DNA from: Candidatus Faeciplasma pullistercoris
Lineage (GTDB): Bacteria > Bacillota > Clostridia > Oscillospirales > Ruminococcaceae
Length of the DNA: 64,000 nucleotides
Reading direction: 5' to 3'
Assembly (NCBI GenBank): GCA_018715525.1
Contig: DVLL01000021.1
Location: 62,001-126,000, forward strand
Positions 28,808 to 35,651 of the stretch are shown in pieces. Made by a program: the position numbers and the translations under genes. Position 1 is the stretch's first letter. Every line of letters begins with the position of its first letter. Under the pieces are notes generated by a model. The model saw nothing but the letters and a program-made list of their open reading frames with translations. It did not search any database and was not told where the DNA came from.

Positions 28808-30187
28808 TTAGTAAACATCTACACCGTCAATTACAACGTTAAGTCTGTCAGTAGGCATAGAGTTTTTGTTAGCCCAAATGGTAGAACCAGTGGAAATACC
28901 GTTCGGGTTCACATCAAAGCCGTTAACGGTAACATTATTGATATTGATGGTGAAAGATTCACCGTAATCGCTACCAGTTTCGATAGCTGCCTTACCGTTA
29001 AAATTACCATAGTCATTAAAGGTGCAGTTGTTAATTGTCACGGTGCTGGTACCACTGCCGTAAACCAGAACGGACTTACCACCGGAGTTAAAGGTGCAGT
29101 TCTCAAAGGTAGCATTGCTTCCCCAAGTCCACACATTGTAGCCTTCCATGTTGTTGAAGGTGCAATTAGTGAAGGTGGATTCGCCGTACAAAGTAATTCT
29201 GCCGTAAATGGTGCAGTCGATATAGGTAGCCTTGGCACGGACATAGCCATTGTAGTCCTGTTCGTCAAAGTCAAGAGTTACACCCTCGAAGGTCACAGTT
29301 GCACCATCAAGACCGTAATCGCCTTCGCCATCCTTTATGCATTTAATTTTTGTGTCCTTGGTACCGGTAATGGTAAGAGTTTTGCCTTTAGCGTTAGCGG
29401 GAATAGTGTATTCGCCTGCCGGCAGAACAACAGTACCGCCATCTTCAACAGAAGCTACTGCTTCTGCAAAAGCCTCGTAGGTAGCTTCCGTAACCACCAC
29501 TACATCGGTGAAGTCGGCTTCAGCATCGTAGCTGCTGCCGAAGCTGTCGGATTCATAAGCGAATTGGGTTGCGAGGATGTTGATGCCGAACTGGATGGAA
29601 GCTGCATTGCCGGGCTTGGCATTGGCCTCGTTGCCCACGGTTTCGGGCATATCGACCTTGATAAACAGATAGTGGCTGTCGCCGGGGAGGAGGTGATTTT
29701 CACGCTTCACCTCGCTGAGCTTGTTGGTGTACTCATAACCCACAGCGTTCTCACCCTGGAAGGCAAGGCCCAGCGTGATGTTGCCGATGTCGTTGACCTG
29801 CTGTGCCAGCGTAGACACTTCCAGATAGTCGGACAGTTTGAAGGGGGCGCCGTAGACATTGGTGCCCATAGTCTCGGAGACAATGTTCATGCCCATCTGA
29901 TACTTAAGCGCCAGAGAGCCGTTGTTGGTGACCTTCAGAGCAACCACACGGGTGTGGCCCGGCTCCCACAGGGCATCTGCAAAGAGGTTAGTGGCATTAT
30001 CCAGGTAAGACCAGCTCATGCCGTCCTGAGTGTACTGAACGTCGATGTCCAGCATACCTGCCTGAATGGAATTCAAGCCGGTAGATGCGTTGTCCGTAAA
30101 CCATGCGAATGTCGAGCCAATCAACATTGTCACGCAAAGCAGCATGGACAGACAACTAAGTAAAAGAGATTTTTTTGTTTTACTCAC
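28808..30187 (-). CDS. TasA-like SipW-dependent secreted protein with beta-helix-type C-terminal repeats
   Basis: GTG start at 30187 after AGGAGG; signal LLLSCLSMLLCVTMLIGSTFAWFTDNAST; C-terminal TFTNCTFNN.../TFENCTFNS.../TINNCTFND repeats. Confidence 0.82.
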   Translation of the reverse strand: MSKTKKSLLLSCLSMLLCVTMLIGSTFAWFTDNASTGLNSIQAGMLDIDVQYTQDGMSWSYLDNATNLFADALWEPGHTRVVALKVTNNGSLALKYQMGMNIVSETMGTNVYGAPFKLSDYLEVSTLAQQVNDIGNITLGLAFQGENAVGYEYTNKLSEVKRENHLLPGDSHYLFIKVDMPETVGNEANAKPGNAASIQFGINILATQFAYESDSFGSSYDAEADFTDVVVVTEATYEAFAEAVASVEDGGTVVLPAGEYTIPANAKGKTLTITGTKDTKIKCIKDGEGDYGLDGATVTFEGVTLDFDEQDYNGYVRAKATYIDCTIYGRITLYGESTFTNCTFNNMEGYNVWTWGSNATFENCTFNSGGKSVLVYGSGTSTVTINNCTFNDYGNFNGKAAIETGSDYGESFTININNVTVNGFDVNPNGISTGSTIWANKNSMPTDRLNVVIDGVDVY

Positions 30188-31052
30188 CGTATTTTTCCTC
30201 CTGATTGTTTGTGTCAGGCAGACAAAATCCCTGTTGCCTGTCTGCTGTATGTGAATCGGCTGAATTGCCGTTTTCACCATAAGTGTCCGATGGCATTGCC
30301 GTCGATGAGGCGTTTTGCACCATCTGCGCCTGCATCTGGGTAAGCTCCTCTATCATGCGGCGGGTTTCCTCCCGTTCTGCGGCAAGCTGCTCACGCTCGA
30401 CTTGGATTTCCGCTTTCTTTTCCTGCTGATACTGACGGAACACCTGAATGCTGTTCACGCCCTGCATGATAATCAGCAGCATAAAGGGGAGCAGGATACA
30501 GCAAATATAGCCGGGAGTGGTTTTTAAGAAAGTGAAGAAAGTTCCCACCTTCGGCAGATACCCTTCATATTTGCCGAGGACGTATTCGTATGTAACCGGC
30601 GTAGTATCATCGGTATTGGTTGTTGTACCGTAAGTGATAAAAGCAGGTTCACCGTCCTGCGTTGTTGTCAGCGAACGAATTTTATGGGTAACGACTTCAC
30701 CGAAGTTTTCCGGGTTCGTGGAACGGAAAGCGATGATGTCTCCTTCCTGCAAAGTCGCCGGGTCAACTCTCTTGGTGAGAATTAAATCGCCGGAATCAAA
30801 ATCCGTGGCTTTCATCGAGTCCGTTCTAACGATAAACATCTGATACCCGAACAGGCTGCGTTCATTTCGGTCAAAGGTTGTGACGGAAATGATGGTGAAT
30901 ATCATCATTGCAACCGCCGCAATCGCCACCAGCCAGACGAATATGTTTTTCAGAATGTAAAGAATCTTCGCTCCGGTGGAGCGTTCCTTCTTCGATTTCT
31001 GTTTATTGGGCGATGCTTGCGTTTCATATCGCCCTTTCGTTTTGGTTGGCAT
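30180..31052 (-). CDS. Signal peptidase I, SipW/ER type
   Basis: FIVRTDSMKATDFDSGDLIL (Ser) and GEVVTHKIRSL (His instead of Lys); long coiled-coil tail QQEKKAEIQVEREQLAAEREE. Confidence 0.9.
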   Translation of the reverse strand: MPTKTKGRYETQASPNKQKSKKERSTGAKILYILKNIFVWLVAIAAVAMMIFTIISVTTFDRNERSLFGYQMFIVRTDSMKATDFDSGDLILTKRVDPATLQEGDIIAFRSTNPENFGEVVTHKIRSLTTTQDGEPAFITYGTTTNTDDTTPVTYEYVLGKYEGYLPKVGTFFTFLKTTPGYICCILLPFMLLIIMQGVNSIQVFRQYQQEKKAEIQVEREQLAAEREETRRMIEELTQMQAQMVQNASSTAMPSDTYGENGNSADSHTADRQQGFCLPDTNNQEEKYGE

Positions 31053-31591
31053 TATTCAAACTCCTTTCCGGGGTTGTTCTTGGTCTGTACCCCAACGGCA
31101 GACAGTTCAAATGTCAGCCCCTCTCCCTGCACAGCATTTCCGCTTCCTTTGGGGAAATGGAAACGGATGGTCAAATCCTGCCGCTGTCCGCTCTCCAAAG
31201 TTGCTTCCATTGCAGGAACAGTTTCCTTCGTCAGCTCGGAGAGTTTTCCGGTCAGCAAAATATTGTCGTCTTCATCCAATATGGTGACGTCCAACACATC
31301 ACCCAATCCGCCGCTGATTTGGGAAAAATACAGCTTGTAGTACACCGCCCAGGTGCCGTTGTTTTTGATGTAGAACGGCTTTTCTACGGTCATACCAGGC
31401 TCAAAAAGATATTCGTCTGCGGTGATGACCGGCTTGCCGCCGTTCAAATCAATTCCGATGCCGCCGGTTTGAAAGCTGTTGTATTCCAGTTTGGCTACTT
31501 GGTAAGCAAGGGCAAAACTCGTTACGGCAAGACAGCAGCAGAGGACAGCAAGGACAATCACGCTCACAGTCAGTCTTTTCTTCTTATCCAT
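31052..31591 (-). CDS. TasA/camelysin-like secreted protein
   Basis: MDKKKRLTVSVIVLAVLCCCLAVTSFALAYQVAKLEYNSFQTGGIGIDLNGGKP; FEPGMTVEKPFYIKNNGTWAVYYKLY. Confidence 0.75.
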   Translation of the reverse strand: MDKKKRLTVSVIVLAVLCCCLAVTSFALAYQVAKLEYNSFQTGGIGIDLNGGKPVITADEYLFEPGMTVEKPFYIKNNGTWAVYYKLYFSQISGGLGDVLDVTILDEDDNILLTGKLSELTKETVPAMEATLESGQRQDLTIRFHFPKGSGNAVQGEGLTFELSAVGVQTKNNPGKEFE

Positions 31592-32732
31592 TTTGCTGCT
31601 CCTCCTTTTTGCGTTTTGTCAGTAACAGGAGAATCAGCGCAAGCAGAGAAACACCTGCTAAAACCGAATAAAGCATACTGCCGGAATCATCGCCGGTTTT
31701 GGGATTGTCCGGTTCGGGCGGATTCGGATTCACCGGAACATTGGGTGACCAGTTGTGGAACCGGGGAACAGCATGGTAGGCTTCGCCGTTTTTCTCATAG
31801 GCTACAGTTGCTTGATAGGCTTTGTCTCTCTTTGTTACCGTAACGGTGATTTGATACACGGCGTCGTCGTAGGTCGCACCCGCCTTGGTTCCTGCTTTCT
31901 CAGTTAAGAAATATGTATAAGTACCTGCGGCGTTGAAACTCATGGTATCGAACTCCACATGACCGTCATCGTTCTTTACACTTTGGATGAGTTTTCCTGC
32001 GGCATCTTTCAATTCAAAGGTGAAGTCGTTTCCTCTGGCAAACTTACCGTCCAGCACTTTTTCTGCCGTCAGCTTTACGACTGCGGAGAAATATTCGGTA
32101 GGATTGTCGGGGTCGGTAGGATCGTCGGGGTCGGTAGGATCGTCGGGGTCGGCAGGATCGTCGGGGTCGGTAGGATCGTCGGGGTCGGTCGGCTTATCGG
32201 GAGATGTTTCCTCTAAGAACCACCAGCGGAAATCCGCTTTCAGGGATTGGTACATATATCGCTTGCCATCCGTATCGATTTCATTTACCGAGCCAACGGA
32301 GGTATCCAGATAAACGGTAAGCCGGTAAGTCAGACTTTTTTCCGATGCGGATAAGTTTTGCGTGAGGGAGCTCGGCATCTCCAACATCAAACCGTCATAC
32401 AGTACCGTCCCTTTATCCGGCAAAGCAACTTTTATTTTCAGCACCTCGGAAAGAATTTCATAACCGGGATGAATGTCTGCGTGGTAATGCAGAGTAATTT
32501 CTCCTTTGTGAGATACATTTACGGTGACATCTTTCGTTACGGAATCGCCGGGAAACATATTCTCTACGGCAAAGGGAAGCAGCGTACTGTCATCCGCAGA
32601 CTTCAGGCTGATTGCGGATTTCTCTGTAGTTTCTGCTGCAAAAGCCGTAGGAACAAACGATGTCATCAATATAAAAGCCAACAGGATGGCTGCCATACTT
32701 CTGAAGCCGGAATATTTCCTTTTTTCTTTCAT
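31584..32732 (-). CDS. Cell-wall-anchored pilin-like protein (TasA-like N-terminus, PTDPDD linker, Spy0128/FctA-like domain, NPKTG sorting signal)
   Basis: ATG at 32732 after AAGGAGTG; YFSAVVKLTAEKVLDG...FTFELKDAAGKLIQS; NPKTGDDSGSMLYSVLAGVSLLALILLLLTKRKKEEQ. Confidence 0.82.
   Translation of the reverse strand: MKEKRKYSGFRSMAAILLAFILMTSFVPTAFAAETTEKSAISLKSADDSTLLPFAVENMFPGDSVTKDVTVNVSHKGEITLHYHADIHPGYEILSEVLKIKVALPDKGTVLYDGLMLEMPSSLTQNLSASEKSLTYRLTVYLDTSVGSVNEIDTDGKRYMYQSLKADFRWWFLEETSPDKPTDPDDPTDPDDPADPDDPTDPDDPTDPDNPTEYFSAVVKLTAEKVLDGKFARGNDFTFELKDAAGKLIQSVKNDDGHVEFDTMSFNAAGTYTYFLTEKAGTKAGATYDDAVYQITVTVTKRDKAYQATVAYEKNGEAYHAVPRFHNWSPNVPVNPNPPEPDNPKTGDDSGSMLYSVLAGVSLLALILLLLTKRKKEEQQNG
32098..32187 (-). 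repeat. 18-bp tandem repeat, 5 copies, encoding the (PTDPDD)n linker
   Basis: gtaggatcgtcggggtcg x5 with single-base variants. Confidence 0.9.
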
Positions 32733-32757: not shown

Positions 32758-33387
32758 TTATGATTGCTCAGCAGGTTCCTCCTGCCGGTGAGTTCTTTCA
32801 TAGCAGGCGTAGATAGCAGTATATACATTGCGAAAAACTCGCTCTGCCGTTTCTTCCGTGTTGGGATGCTCGCCGTTTGCAACCTGCATTGCAAATCCGT
32901 AAACCGAATTGAATATCATATACAGCAGCGTTGCGGCTTCGTCTCTGTCCCGGAATGTGGGATAGAGCAAATCACTCAGCTCGTCCAGCCATTTTTTATG
33001 ATCGTCCATTGCATACTTTGTAAAGCCGGGGGAGTTATAGTAGTATACAAGAAACTTGCAGATGTCGGGATTTTCGGTCAGGTACTTCCACGCTGTTTTG
33101 ATTACATAAGCACTGCGTTCTTCCAGCGGCTTTTCATCAATCATTTGATTTTCGTAGTCTATCGCCTTCACAAGAATGTTCATCAGCTTATCGTTCTCAC
33201 TGATGTATGCCTGTGACAGCAGATGGTCTTTGTCATTGAAGTAACGATAGATAAAGGCATCCTGAAAACCGGCTTCCTTGCCGATCAGACGGGTACTGGA
33301 GTTTTCAATGCCAACCCTTGCGACAACAGTTACCGTACTTTTCAATAGCACCGCTTTCTTATCAATATCGCCATATACTCTGCCCAA
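32758..33387 (-). CDS. TetR/AcrR family transcriptional regulator
   Basis: STRLIGKEAGFQDAFIYRYFNDKDHLLSQAYI helix-turn-helix; start ambiguous (TTG 33387 after GGAGG, or 33402). Confidence 0.82.
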   Translation of the reverse strand: MGRVYGDIDKKAVLLKSTVTVVARVGIENSSTRLIGKEAGFQDAFIYRYFNDKDHLLSQAYISENDKLMNILVKAIDYENQMIDEKPLEERSAYVIKTAWKYLTENPDICKFLVYYYNSPGFTKYAMDDHKKWLDELSDLLYPTFRDRDEAATLLYMIFNSVYGFAMQVANGEHPNTEETAERVFRNVYTAIYACYERTHRQEEPAEQS

Positions 33388-33496
33388 TTCACACGCCTCC
33401 AACGCTAATCCCTGCGTTTATAATTGCAAACGCTACTTTTTGTGTAAAATTTTTTCGGAGAAAAACTCTCTGAAAACTACTGCGAGATGTCAACAT

Positions 33497-33522
33497 TCCT
33501 CAAAAGGTAGACTTTTTGAGAA
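33497..33522. promoter_or_regulatory. 26-bp hix-like imperfect palindrome (left site)
   Basis: TCCTCAAAAGGT-AG-ACTTTTTGAGAA. Confidence 0.5.
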
Positions 33523-33587
33523 ACGCACCAAATGGTCTTTTAACAAAGATAATTCCAGCCTACAACCATTGATTTGCTGAAAAACCG

Positions 33588-33616
33588 TTGAAATCTGCGG
33601 TGGTTTGTGCTATTAT
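33588..33616 (+). promoter_or_regulatory. SigA-type promoter between the two palindromes, pointing away from the minus-strand surface operon
   Basis: TTGAAA-17 nt-TATTAT. Confidence 0.55.
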
Positions 33617-33713
33617 TTAATTACGATGCGAACCGTCATAAAGTCTAACCTTGTGATAGTTCGCTTTATCTTTGTTTCAAATCTGCTCACCCGAACTGTT
33701 CTGAGGGGGTAGA

Positions 33714-33739
33714 TTATCAAAAGGTACACCTTTTGATAA
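33714..33739. promoter_or_regulatory. 26-bp perfect hix-like palindrome (right site); the perfect arms extend to 33712..33741
   Basis: TTATCAAAAGGT-AC-ACCTTTTGATAA. Confidence 0.6.
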
Positions 33740-33822
33740 TCCCCACATAGACGACCTGCGGAGCCTGCTGAAAACAAAAAAAGCGATTTCAAATTGTAAA
33801 TTGTAATTTTTTTGCCAAACTC

Positions 33823-33851
33823 TTGACAATTCAGGATTTTAGTGGTACAAT
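33823..33851 (+). promoter_or_regulatory. SigA-type promoter facing the 3' end of the serine recombinase gene
   Basis: TTGACA-17 nt-TACAAT. Confidence 0.6.
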
Positions 33852-33873
33852 ATCAAGCGTATTAGTGGGTTTG

Positions 33874-33910
33874 TGTCGCTGTCATAAGGTTGTACCTAAT
33901 GACAGCGACA
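33874..33910. other. 37-nt near-perfect hairpin/inverted repeat
   Basis: TGTCGCTGTCAT-a-AGGT-tgt-ACCT-a-ATGACAGCGACA. Confidence 0.75.
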
Positions 33911-33917
33911 TTGTTCG

Positions 33918-34863
<946 letters not shown>

Positions 34864-35651
34864 GGAAGGTAAAGTCAGCGCTTTCGTTCTGAAGCAGATA
34901 TGCCCTGAAGCTGTCCTTCTGCTCGGATACCCAGGTCAAGGGAAGTCCTGCGGCAAGATGGACACGGGCAGAGGTCAGCCTGCGGATATTCAGCTCTCTG
35001 GCAACGGCGGCAAGGGTGAGAATATAATAATCGCTGTCGGTCATCTTGTCGGAGATAAATTCCTTGTGTTCCTCTCCGATCAGATAATACCTGCCCTCAT
35101 AGATCAGCAGATTGCTTTTGAATGTGGGTTCTTTGTCATAGACAGCAACGCCGGTTTTGAAGCAACAGTGGGCGATCTTGATATTGCCGTAGCCGTGGTC
35201 GATGCCGATGATGATGGGGTTATTGTTCATAAAATTCATATTGGTTCCTTTCTGCCGCATAGCGGCGGTACAACGGAGGCGGATTTGACATGAAATATTA
35301 CAGGGAGTATATGTCAAAGAAAACATTGCGCCTTTCCCGCTGCACTCTAAACAAAGACGGAGTTGACGGGAAGACGGAGACATCGGGATATATAACGCTC
35401 GTTCCGCAGGGATATCCGGCTGAAAACTTCCCGGAAGAGGTAAAAGCGGATTTAGTTTATAACGATGTTGAGTTTTGGCAAATGTGAAAGTCATTTTAAT
35501 ACAAGAGGCTGCCGATGAATTTCGCGGCAAAAGAAGCGATAAACAAAGGTGTAGGATTACAATAGATATGTAACAAAAGGTGAAAAAAGAGGAGCGAATG
35601 GGTCAATCCTAAATTCTGTGTAAACTCTGTTTTGTGTGAGAATAGAGCATA

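Follow-up and report, generated by a model that had tools for sequence, protein, structure and literature searches.

A probable two-promoter inversion cassette ahead of a surface-fibre operon in Candidatus Faeciplasma pullistercoris

A small serine recombinase gene and a set of palindromes lie ahead of a putative surface-fibre operon in Candidatus Faeciplasma pullistercoris, and this arrangement raises the question of whether the expression of the operon is switched by promoter inversion. All coordinates below refer to the window, that is, the whole stretch of 64,000 nucleotides that was analysed. The putative target operon is located on the minus strand and starts with a TetR-family regulator (32758–33402; Pfam TetR_N, E 9.5e-9), for which the start codon is possibly a TTG at about 33387. 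This gene is followed on the same strand by an LPXTG protein with a pilin isopeptide (FctA/Spy0128-like) domain (31584–32732; Pfam FctA 5.8e-16, TIGR03786, TIGR01167), a TasA/camelysin-like secreted protein (31052–31591; Pfam PF12389, 3e-5), a SipW-like signal peptidase I (30180–31052; TIGR02228 above cut-off and NCBIfam NF046067, 1.4e-22, below it), and a SipW-dependent TasA-like protein with a beta-helix region (28808–30280; TIGR04088 above cut-off, PF12389, PF13229).

The recombinase, correctly placed by an earlier sequence-only reading beyond the right-hand palindrome, is a resolvase/Sin-like protein of 200 residues encoded on the minus strand (33918–34520; Pfam PF00239, Resolvase, E 1.6e-30). 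Its class is settled by the sequence. The frame is intact, the catalytic residues R8, S10, R45, D67, R68, and R71 are all retained, and the protein lacks the C-terminal extension of the large serine recombinases. Among PDB entries, Sin (2r0q, 9e-31) ranked ahead of gamma-delta resolvase (4.6e-23) and the DNA-invertase entries (3.8e-17); with the Sin/Tn552 resolvase group nearest, the likeness to the Hin/Gin family previously drawn is a loose one. Homologues with 69–74% identity to this recombinase occur in genomes that carry the same sites. A truncated actin-like (ALP_N) gene at 34796–35242 adjoins the recombinase gene, which suggests a plasmid-derived origin.

We identified four palindromic sites between the recombinase and the operon. 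Two of them, 33714–33739 (site B, core 33717–33736) and 33497–33522 (site C, core 33500–33519), had been reported before and were recovered with the same coordinates and sequence. Site B, TTATCAAAAGGT-AC-ACCTTTTGATAA, is a perfect 12 + 2 + 12 palindrome with arms that extend to 14 nt, and this palindrome is present with one to two mismatches in three other genera among the family genomes searched. Site C, TCCTCAAAAGGT-AG-ACTTTTTGAGAA, is located on the operon side and its arms match at 10 of 12 positions. The two sites that had been overlooked have a 3-nt centre: site A (33874–33910, core 33882–33902), which reads TCATAAGGT-TGT-ACCTAATGA on the plus strand, and site D (33636–33656), which reads TCATAAAGT-CTA-ACCTTGTGA. 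Site A lies 7 nt past the recombinase stop codon, in the usual recombinase-side position of relatives. In the orientation of the operon (minus strand), the order is recombinase stop codon, A, promoter 1, B, D, promoter 2, C, and TetR, and the sites read TCATTAGGT-ACA-ACCTTATGA (A), TCAAAAGGT-GT-ACCTTTTGA (B), TCACAAGGT-TAG-ACTTTATGA (D), and TCAAAAAGT-CT-ACCTTTTGA (C). Sites A and D thus both occupy the recombinase side of their own unit and have TCATAA as well as the 3-nt centre in common.

These sites are rare in their surroundings. At up to three mismatches, the core TCAAAAGGTNNACCTTTTGA has exactly two matches in the 64 kb, compared with 0.03 expected from shuffles, and the form with a 3-nt centre also has two (33636–33656 and 33882–33902; 0.04 expected). 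When the centre was allowed one to four bases and at least 15 of 18 core positions had to match, only 33500, 33636, 33717, and 33882 were returned from the 64 kb. Across the 1.71-Mb genome, the core with up to three mismatches was localised to this one locus plus one unrelated 3-mismatch match; this third match, C23:25861, was dropped as a site because it is a lone hairpin without the site layout.

The inverted sites flank two predicted promoters. Promoter 1 (33823–33851, plus strand; TTGACA-17-TACAAT, with TG before the −10) is positioned between A and B, matches the consensus at 11 of 12 positions, and was equalled by none of 100 shuffles of the segment. Promoter 2 (33588–33616, plus strand; TTGAAA-17-TATTAT), the one that the sequence-only reading had found, is positioned between C and D, and its −10 is 19 bp from D and 100 bp from B, the usual distance in relatives being 12–21 bp. 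The core-to-core distance from C to D is 136 bp, and a spacing of 136/137 bp is common in relatives; A and B are 165 bp apart, whereas the 217 bp between B and C fall outside the 124–169 bp range of relative pairs. The mismatch of the B and C central dinucleotides (AC and AG on the plus strand) that had been pointed out stands, as they read GT against AG when inverted and GT and CT in the operon orientation, with no match either way. The A/B centres (AC.., GT) and the D/C centres (..AG, CT) are complementary only if one extra base of A and of D is set aside. Because B and C are mismatched and each has a partner with a complementary centre at family-like spacing, the original pairing of 33497 with 33714 is probably wrong, and the overlooked sites and promoter 1 change it: we infer the pairs A/B and D/C, with the extra centre base in A and D disregarded. 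A perfect 11-bp inverted repeat, AACAAAGATAA at 33542–33552 and TTATCTTTGTT at 33666–33676, has one copy within the D–C unit and the other outside it.

Both predicted promoters are directed away from the operon and face the recombinase in the sequenced orientation, so that, judging from these predictions, the operon is most likely OFF in the assembly. The OFF state proposed earlier therefore holds for the predicted direction, but it had been based on promoter 2 while the stronger promoter 1 was missed. A putative weak fixed promoter (33420–33448, minus strand; TTTACA-17-AATTAT), which comes from a consensus scan alone, is located near the TetR start and may transcribe the operon in either orientation, giving basal expression. 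The palindrome GCGTTTATAATTGCAAACGC at 33414–33433 overlaps the −10 of this weak promoter.

Comparison with other genomes placed the window sites in a family that is present in 10 other genomes of the same taxonomic family, ahead of genes that are unrelated and have no TetR gene beside them. A search for the TCAAAAGGT core gave sites in 11 of 398 family genomes, at up to nine per genome, whereas the reversed control pattern gave four single matches; a degenerate pattern returned sites in 11 of 12 selected genomes, at up to 13 per genome, and none in the controls. The exact 26-bp palindrome was absent from the viral contigs, and the seven matches to its core there, mostly lone unpaired sites inside phage genes, were treated as chance. 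At 27 loci in relatives the sites form inverted pairs, 124–169 bp apart and usually around a promoter, and in all 27 both sites have complementary 2-nt centres (17 GT/AC and 10 AT/AT). A promoter-like element with a clear direction, its −10 at 12–21 bp from one site, is present in 25 of these pairs, and it points away from the gene in 23 and toward it in two (L079 and L145); these orientation counts omit L137, where the target gene is ambiguous, and L093, which has no clear promoter, and the sets in genomes G245, G088, and G262 are paralogues, so the counts are not independent. Many of the single promoter calls are no better than shuffles, which makes their constant position the stronger argument.

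The association of these sites with the recombinase is likewise a recurrent one. At six loci (L109, L112, L114, L119, L091, and L094), a recombinase homologue ends 1–20 bp ahead of the site pair, and on the recombinase tree the site types fall into clusters (8 changes compared with 17.6 when the labels were shuffled). G088, G262, and G245 each contain a single close recombinase match and 11–13 dispersed sites, an arrangement that makes action in trans likely in these genomes. In G088 and G262 (L084–L090 and L131–L136), the genes for at least eight paralogous secreted proteins are each preceded by an OFF inverton; these invertons are nearly identical and have AT/AT centres, and the one protein scanned contains BspA-type leucine-rich repeats (LRR). 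Overall, the targets in relatives include BspA-type LRR, Ig-like, Fn3, and dockerin proteins and, judged from sequence, an exopolysaccharide sugar transferase. On a phage-like contig (L030, 3001–5522) a cassette precedes a gene for an SPFH-domain protein. A gene judged csrA-like lies directly behind the inverton at L122 (G378:C179) and at L093/L119 (G372:C206), raising the prospect that a global regulator may be phase-variable. The genome of the window itself contains two more recombinase-plus-inverton cassettes, C13 5303–5872 (L148) and C10 69512–70105 (L147), each with its own recombinase and each ahead of a lipoprotein-like gene; the promoter of the C13 cassette, TAGAAA-17-TATAAT, faces the gene (ON).

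Physical inversion was observed in a sister clade of the window recombinase. Two species of the same genus carry orthologous cassettes (L167 in G030 and L169 in G024), the flanks of which are identical at 587 of 600 positions up to the left GT and at 390 of 400 from the right AC (98%). The GT and AC centres enclose 172 bp, of which only 79 are identical when aligned directly but 166 (97%) when one segment is flipped. Inversion between the site centres is thus shown as a difference between species within the genus of the window organism; the recombinases of these cassettes are 62–63% identical to that of the window, and the letters of their sites differ. In L167 and L168 the promoter, TTGCAT-17-TATAAT, faces the gene (ON); in L162 and L169 it is directed toward the recombinase (OFF). 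These four cassettes have a third site near one end, inside the flipped segment, and multi-site cassettes are therefore not unique to the window. Within genome G325, the paralogous segments L078 and L079 have opposite orientations relative to their own genes. At L135, one outer arm, an AT centre, and the other outer arm are joined and the promoter segment is gone, as site-specific recombination would leave it; single sites at L143 and L075 are similar to this deletion scar. The comparison of orientations across relatives proposed in the sequence-only reading was thus informative through the L167/L169 orthologues, but no full homologue of the window locus, and hence no second orientation, was found in 31 genus and 299 family genomes. 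Apart from a 30-bp piece beside a tRNA region in G314, these genomes gave no orthologue of the window segment.

Based on this, we consider it probable that 33497–33910 forms an invertible-promoter cassette that is linked to the recombinase and consists of two units in tandem. The kind of element proposed by the sequence-only reading is supported by the same cassettes, and their flipping, in relatives; its division into two units is new. The small serine recombinase would bind the palindromic arms, cut at the centre, and rejoin the ends after rotation, so that recombination of A with B, or of D with C, would invert the enclosed promoter. The flipped promoter would then read through its outer site into the TetR–pilin–TasA–SipW operon. 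In this model the window recombinase would act on sites A–D, and the operon would depend on promoters 1 and 2. The 3-nt centres of A and D, unlike both sites in all 27 relative pairs, may impair strand exchange, and the window copy may accordingly be slow or locked OFF.

The last point leads to the strongest of the rival explanations, namely that the cassette has decayed and is locked, with the centre insertions in A and D and the mismatch of B and C leaving no competent pair and the operon either fixed OFF or driven by another promoter. We regard this as a substantial possibility, if somewhat short of an even chance, and one that overlaps with the tandem-cassette model. No pair in the window has two matching 2-nt centres (ACA for A, TAG for D, GT for B, and CT for C in the operon orientation), as every relative pair does, and the deletion scars in relatives indicate that cassettes get lost. 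Decay fits less well with the intact frame and catalytic residues of the recombinase, with the strength of both promoters, and with the perfect arms of site B. Also, A and D are both recombinase-side sites with the same TCATAA and 3-nt centre, a likeness that points to a common feature more than to two separate events of decay.

In another arrangement, B and C would be the sole crossover sites, the whole 191-bp segment between them would invert, and A and D would be accessory recombinase-binding sites. Resolvase res sites do have sub-sites with other spacings, and plasmid relatives of the recombinase carry, upstream of the gene, a palindromic site plus an extra arm-like element, so that the wider family does include accessory sites. 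B and C are, moreover, the two best sites and have the 2-nt centre of the family. Their centres nevertheless mismatch either way where those of all relative pairs match, their spacing is outside the range of those pairs, and the −10 of promoter 2 has the usual geometry with respect to D instead of B. We therefore judge this arrangement improbable.

Two further explanations dispense with switching altogether. Proteins 53–55% identical to the recombinase are resolvases on Firmicutes plasmids and transposons with a palindromic site adjoining the gene, and together with the truncated actin-like partition gene this could mark the recombinase as an ordinary plasmid or transposon resolvase left as a remnant, with the palindromes as its res site. 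We consider this very unlikely, as the plasmid relatives have their site upstream of the gene, the sites of the window and of its chromosomal relatives are downstream with promoters between them, and the cassettes of relatives flip. Least likely of all is that the palindromes are operators of the adjacent TetR with no inversion, an alternative the sequence-only reading took seriously because the sites are so symmetric. TetR operators are palindromic, and the TetR gene begins about 100 bp from C. However, these palindromes are also present in other genera of the family that lack this TetR (no homologue at E 1e-10 among 199 relatives), and there they adjoin recombinase genes ahead of unrelated genes. 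An operator role would also leave the flipped orthologues, the deletion scars, and the pairing of GT with AC centres unexplained, and the distinct palindrome that overlaps the putative TetR promoter is a stronger candidate for the operator. A homologue search gave only distant relatives of the TetR, at 15 genome-contig loci, most of them from Vibrio and Photobacterium; viral contigs and plasmids gave no match.

The window thus most likely carries a switch with two promoters ahead of a surface-fibre operon. More tentatively, and with rather less confidence than we place in the cassette itself, we suggest that a little-described family of Sin/resolvase-like serine recombinases of gut Clostridia is devoted to promoter flipping at surface, regulatory (csrA), and prophage genes, the window cassette representing a tandem two-promoter form in which the 3-nt centres of the recombinase-side sites would set or lock the switching bias. 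With the site consensus and the geometry of the cassettes, one assembly is enough to predict such switches, and natural ON/OFF pairs and deletion scars are already present in public genomes. A frozen or biased copy, which the window cassette may be, would allow the central-base rule to be tested directly.

Promoter inversion by a serine recombinase is of a known kind, as in Hin and Mpi. The sites of Hin, Gin, and Cin are of about 26 bp with a 2-bp centre, as here, and Hin also inverts a promoter; the sequence-only reading likened the arms of the window sites to hix, but the window recombinase is encoded outside the invertible segment and is closer to Sin and gamma-delta resolvases. The Sin/Tn552-type resolvases of Firmicutes plasmids provide the closest solved structure, and the palindromic site of the plasmid homologues, CGTAAAAGTnnACTTTTACG, has similar inner letters. 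The substrates of resolvases are plasmid res sites in direct repeat, whereas the window recombinase family, according to the comparative evidence, acts on inverted sites around promoters. Mpi of Bacteroides fragilis is a master serine recombinase of promoter inversions, with 13 regions reported (PMC4747536). It shares with the window cassette a small serine recombinase, short inverted sites around a promoter, and surface-gene targets, and with G088, G262, and G245 the combination of one close recombinase with many dispersed pairs. The window recombinase, however, scores 48.5 bits on the Mpi model (NCBIfam NF009949) against a cut-off of 272, is adjacent to the only locus with its sites in the genome, and belongs to a Clostridia-type host, and the site sequences differ.

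In Clostridioides difficile, as proposed for the window, a short segment upstream of surface or regulatory genes of a Clostridia member is inverted. The cwpV switch acts after initiation. The cwpV, flagellar, and cmr switches are phase-variable through such inversions (PMC2784873, PMC5386303, PMC6837544), the flagellar one through RecV (PMC7446863), which belongs to the tyrosine recombinases (PMC5903667). PhaseFinder-type surveys report many invertons in Clostridia and tie Clostridia groups to tyrosine-type recombinases (PMC11892184, PMC5903667). No description of the present recombinase lineage and site family was found in the partial set of papers searched. Phase variation by promoter inversion is well described in Bacteroides and in C. 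difficile, where the enzyme is a tyrosine recombinase in the case of C. difficile. The recombinase described here is of the serine type, has defined palindromic sites, and recurs over many genera of one Clostridia family, in cassettes that precede BspA-like, Ig-like, dockerin, and pilin proteins, lipoproteins, and csrA.
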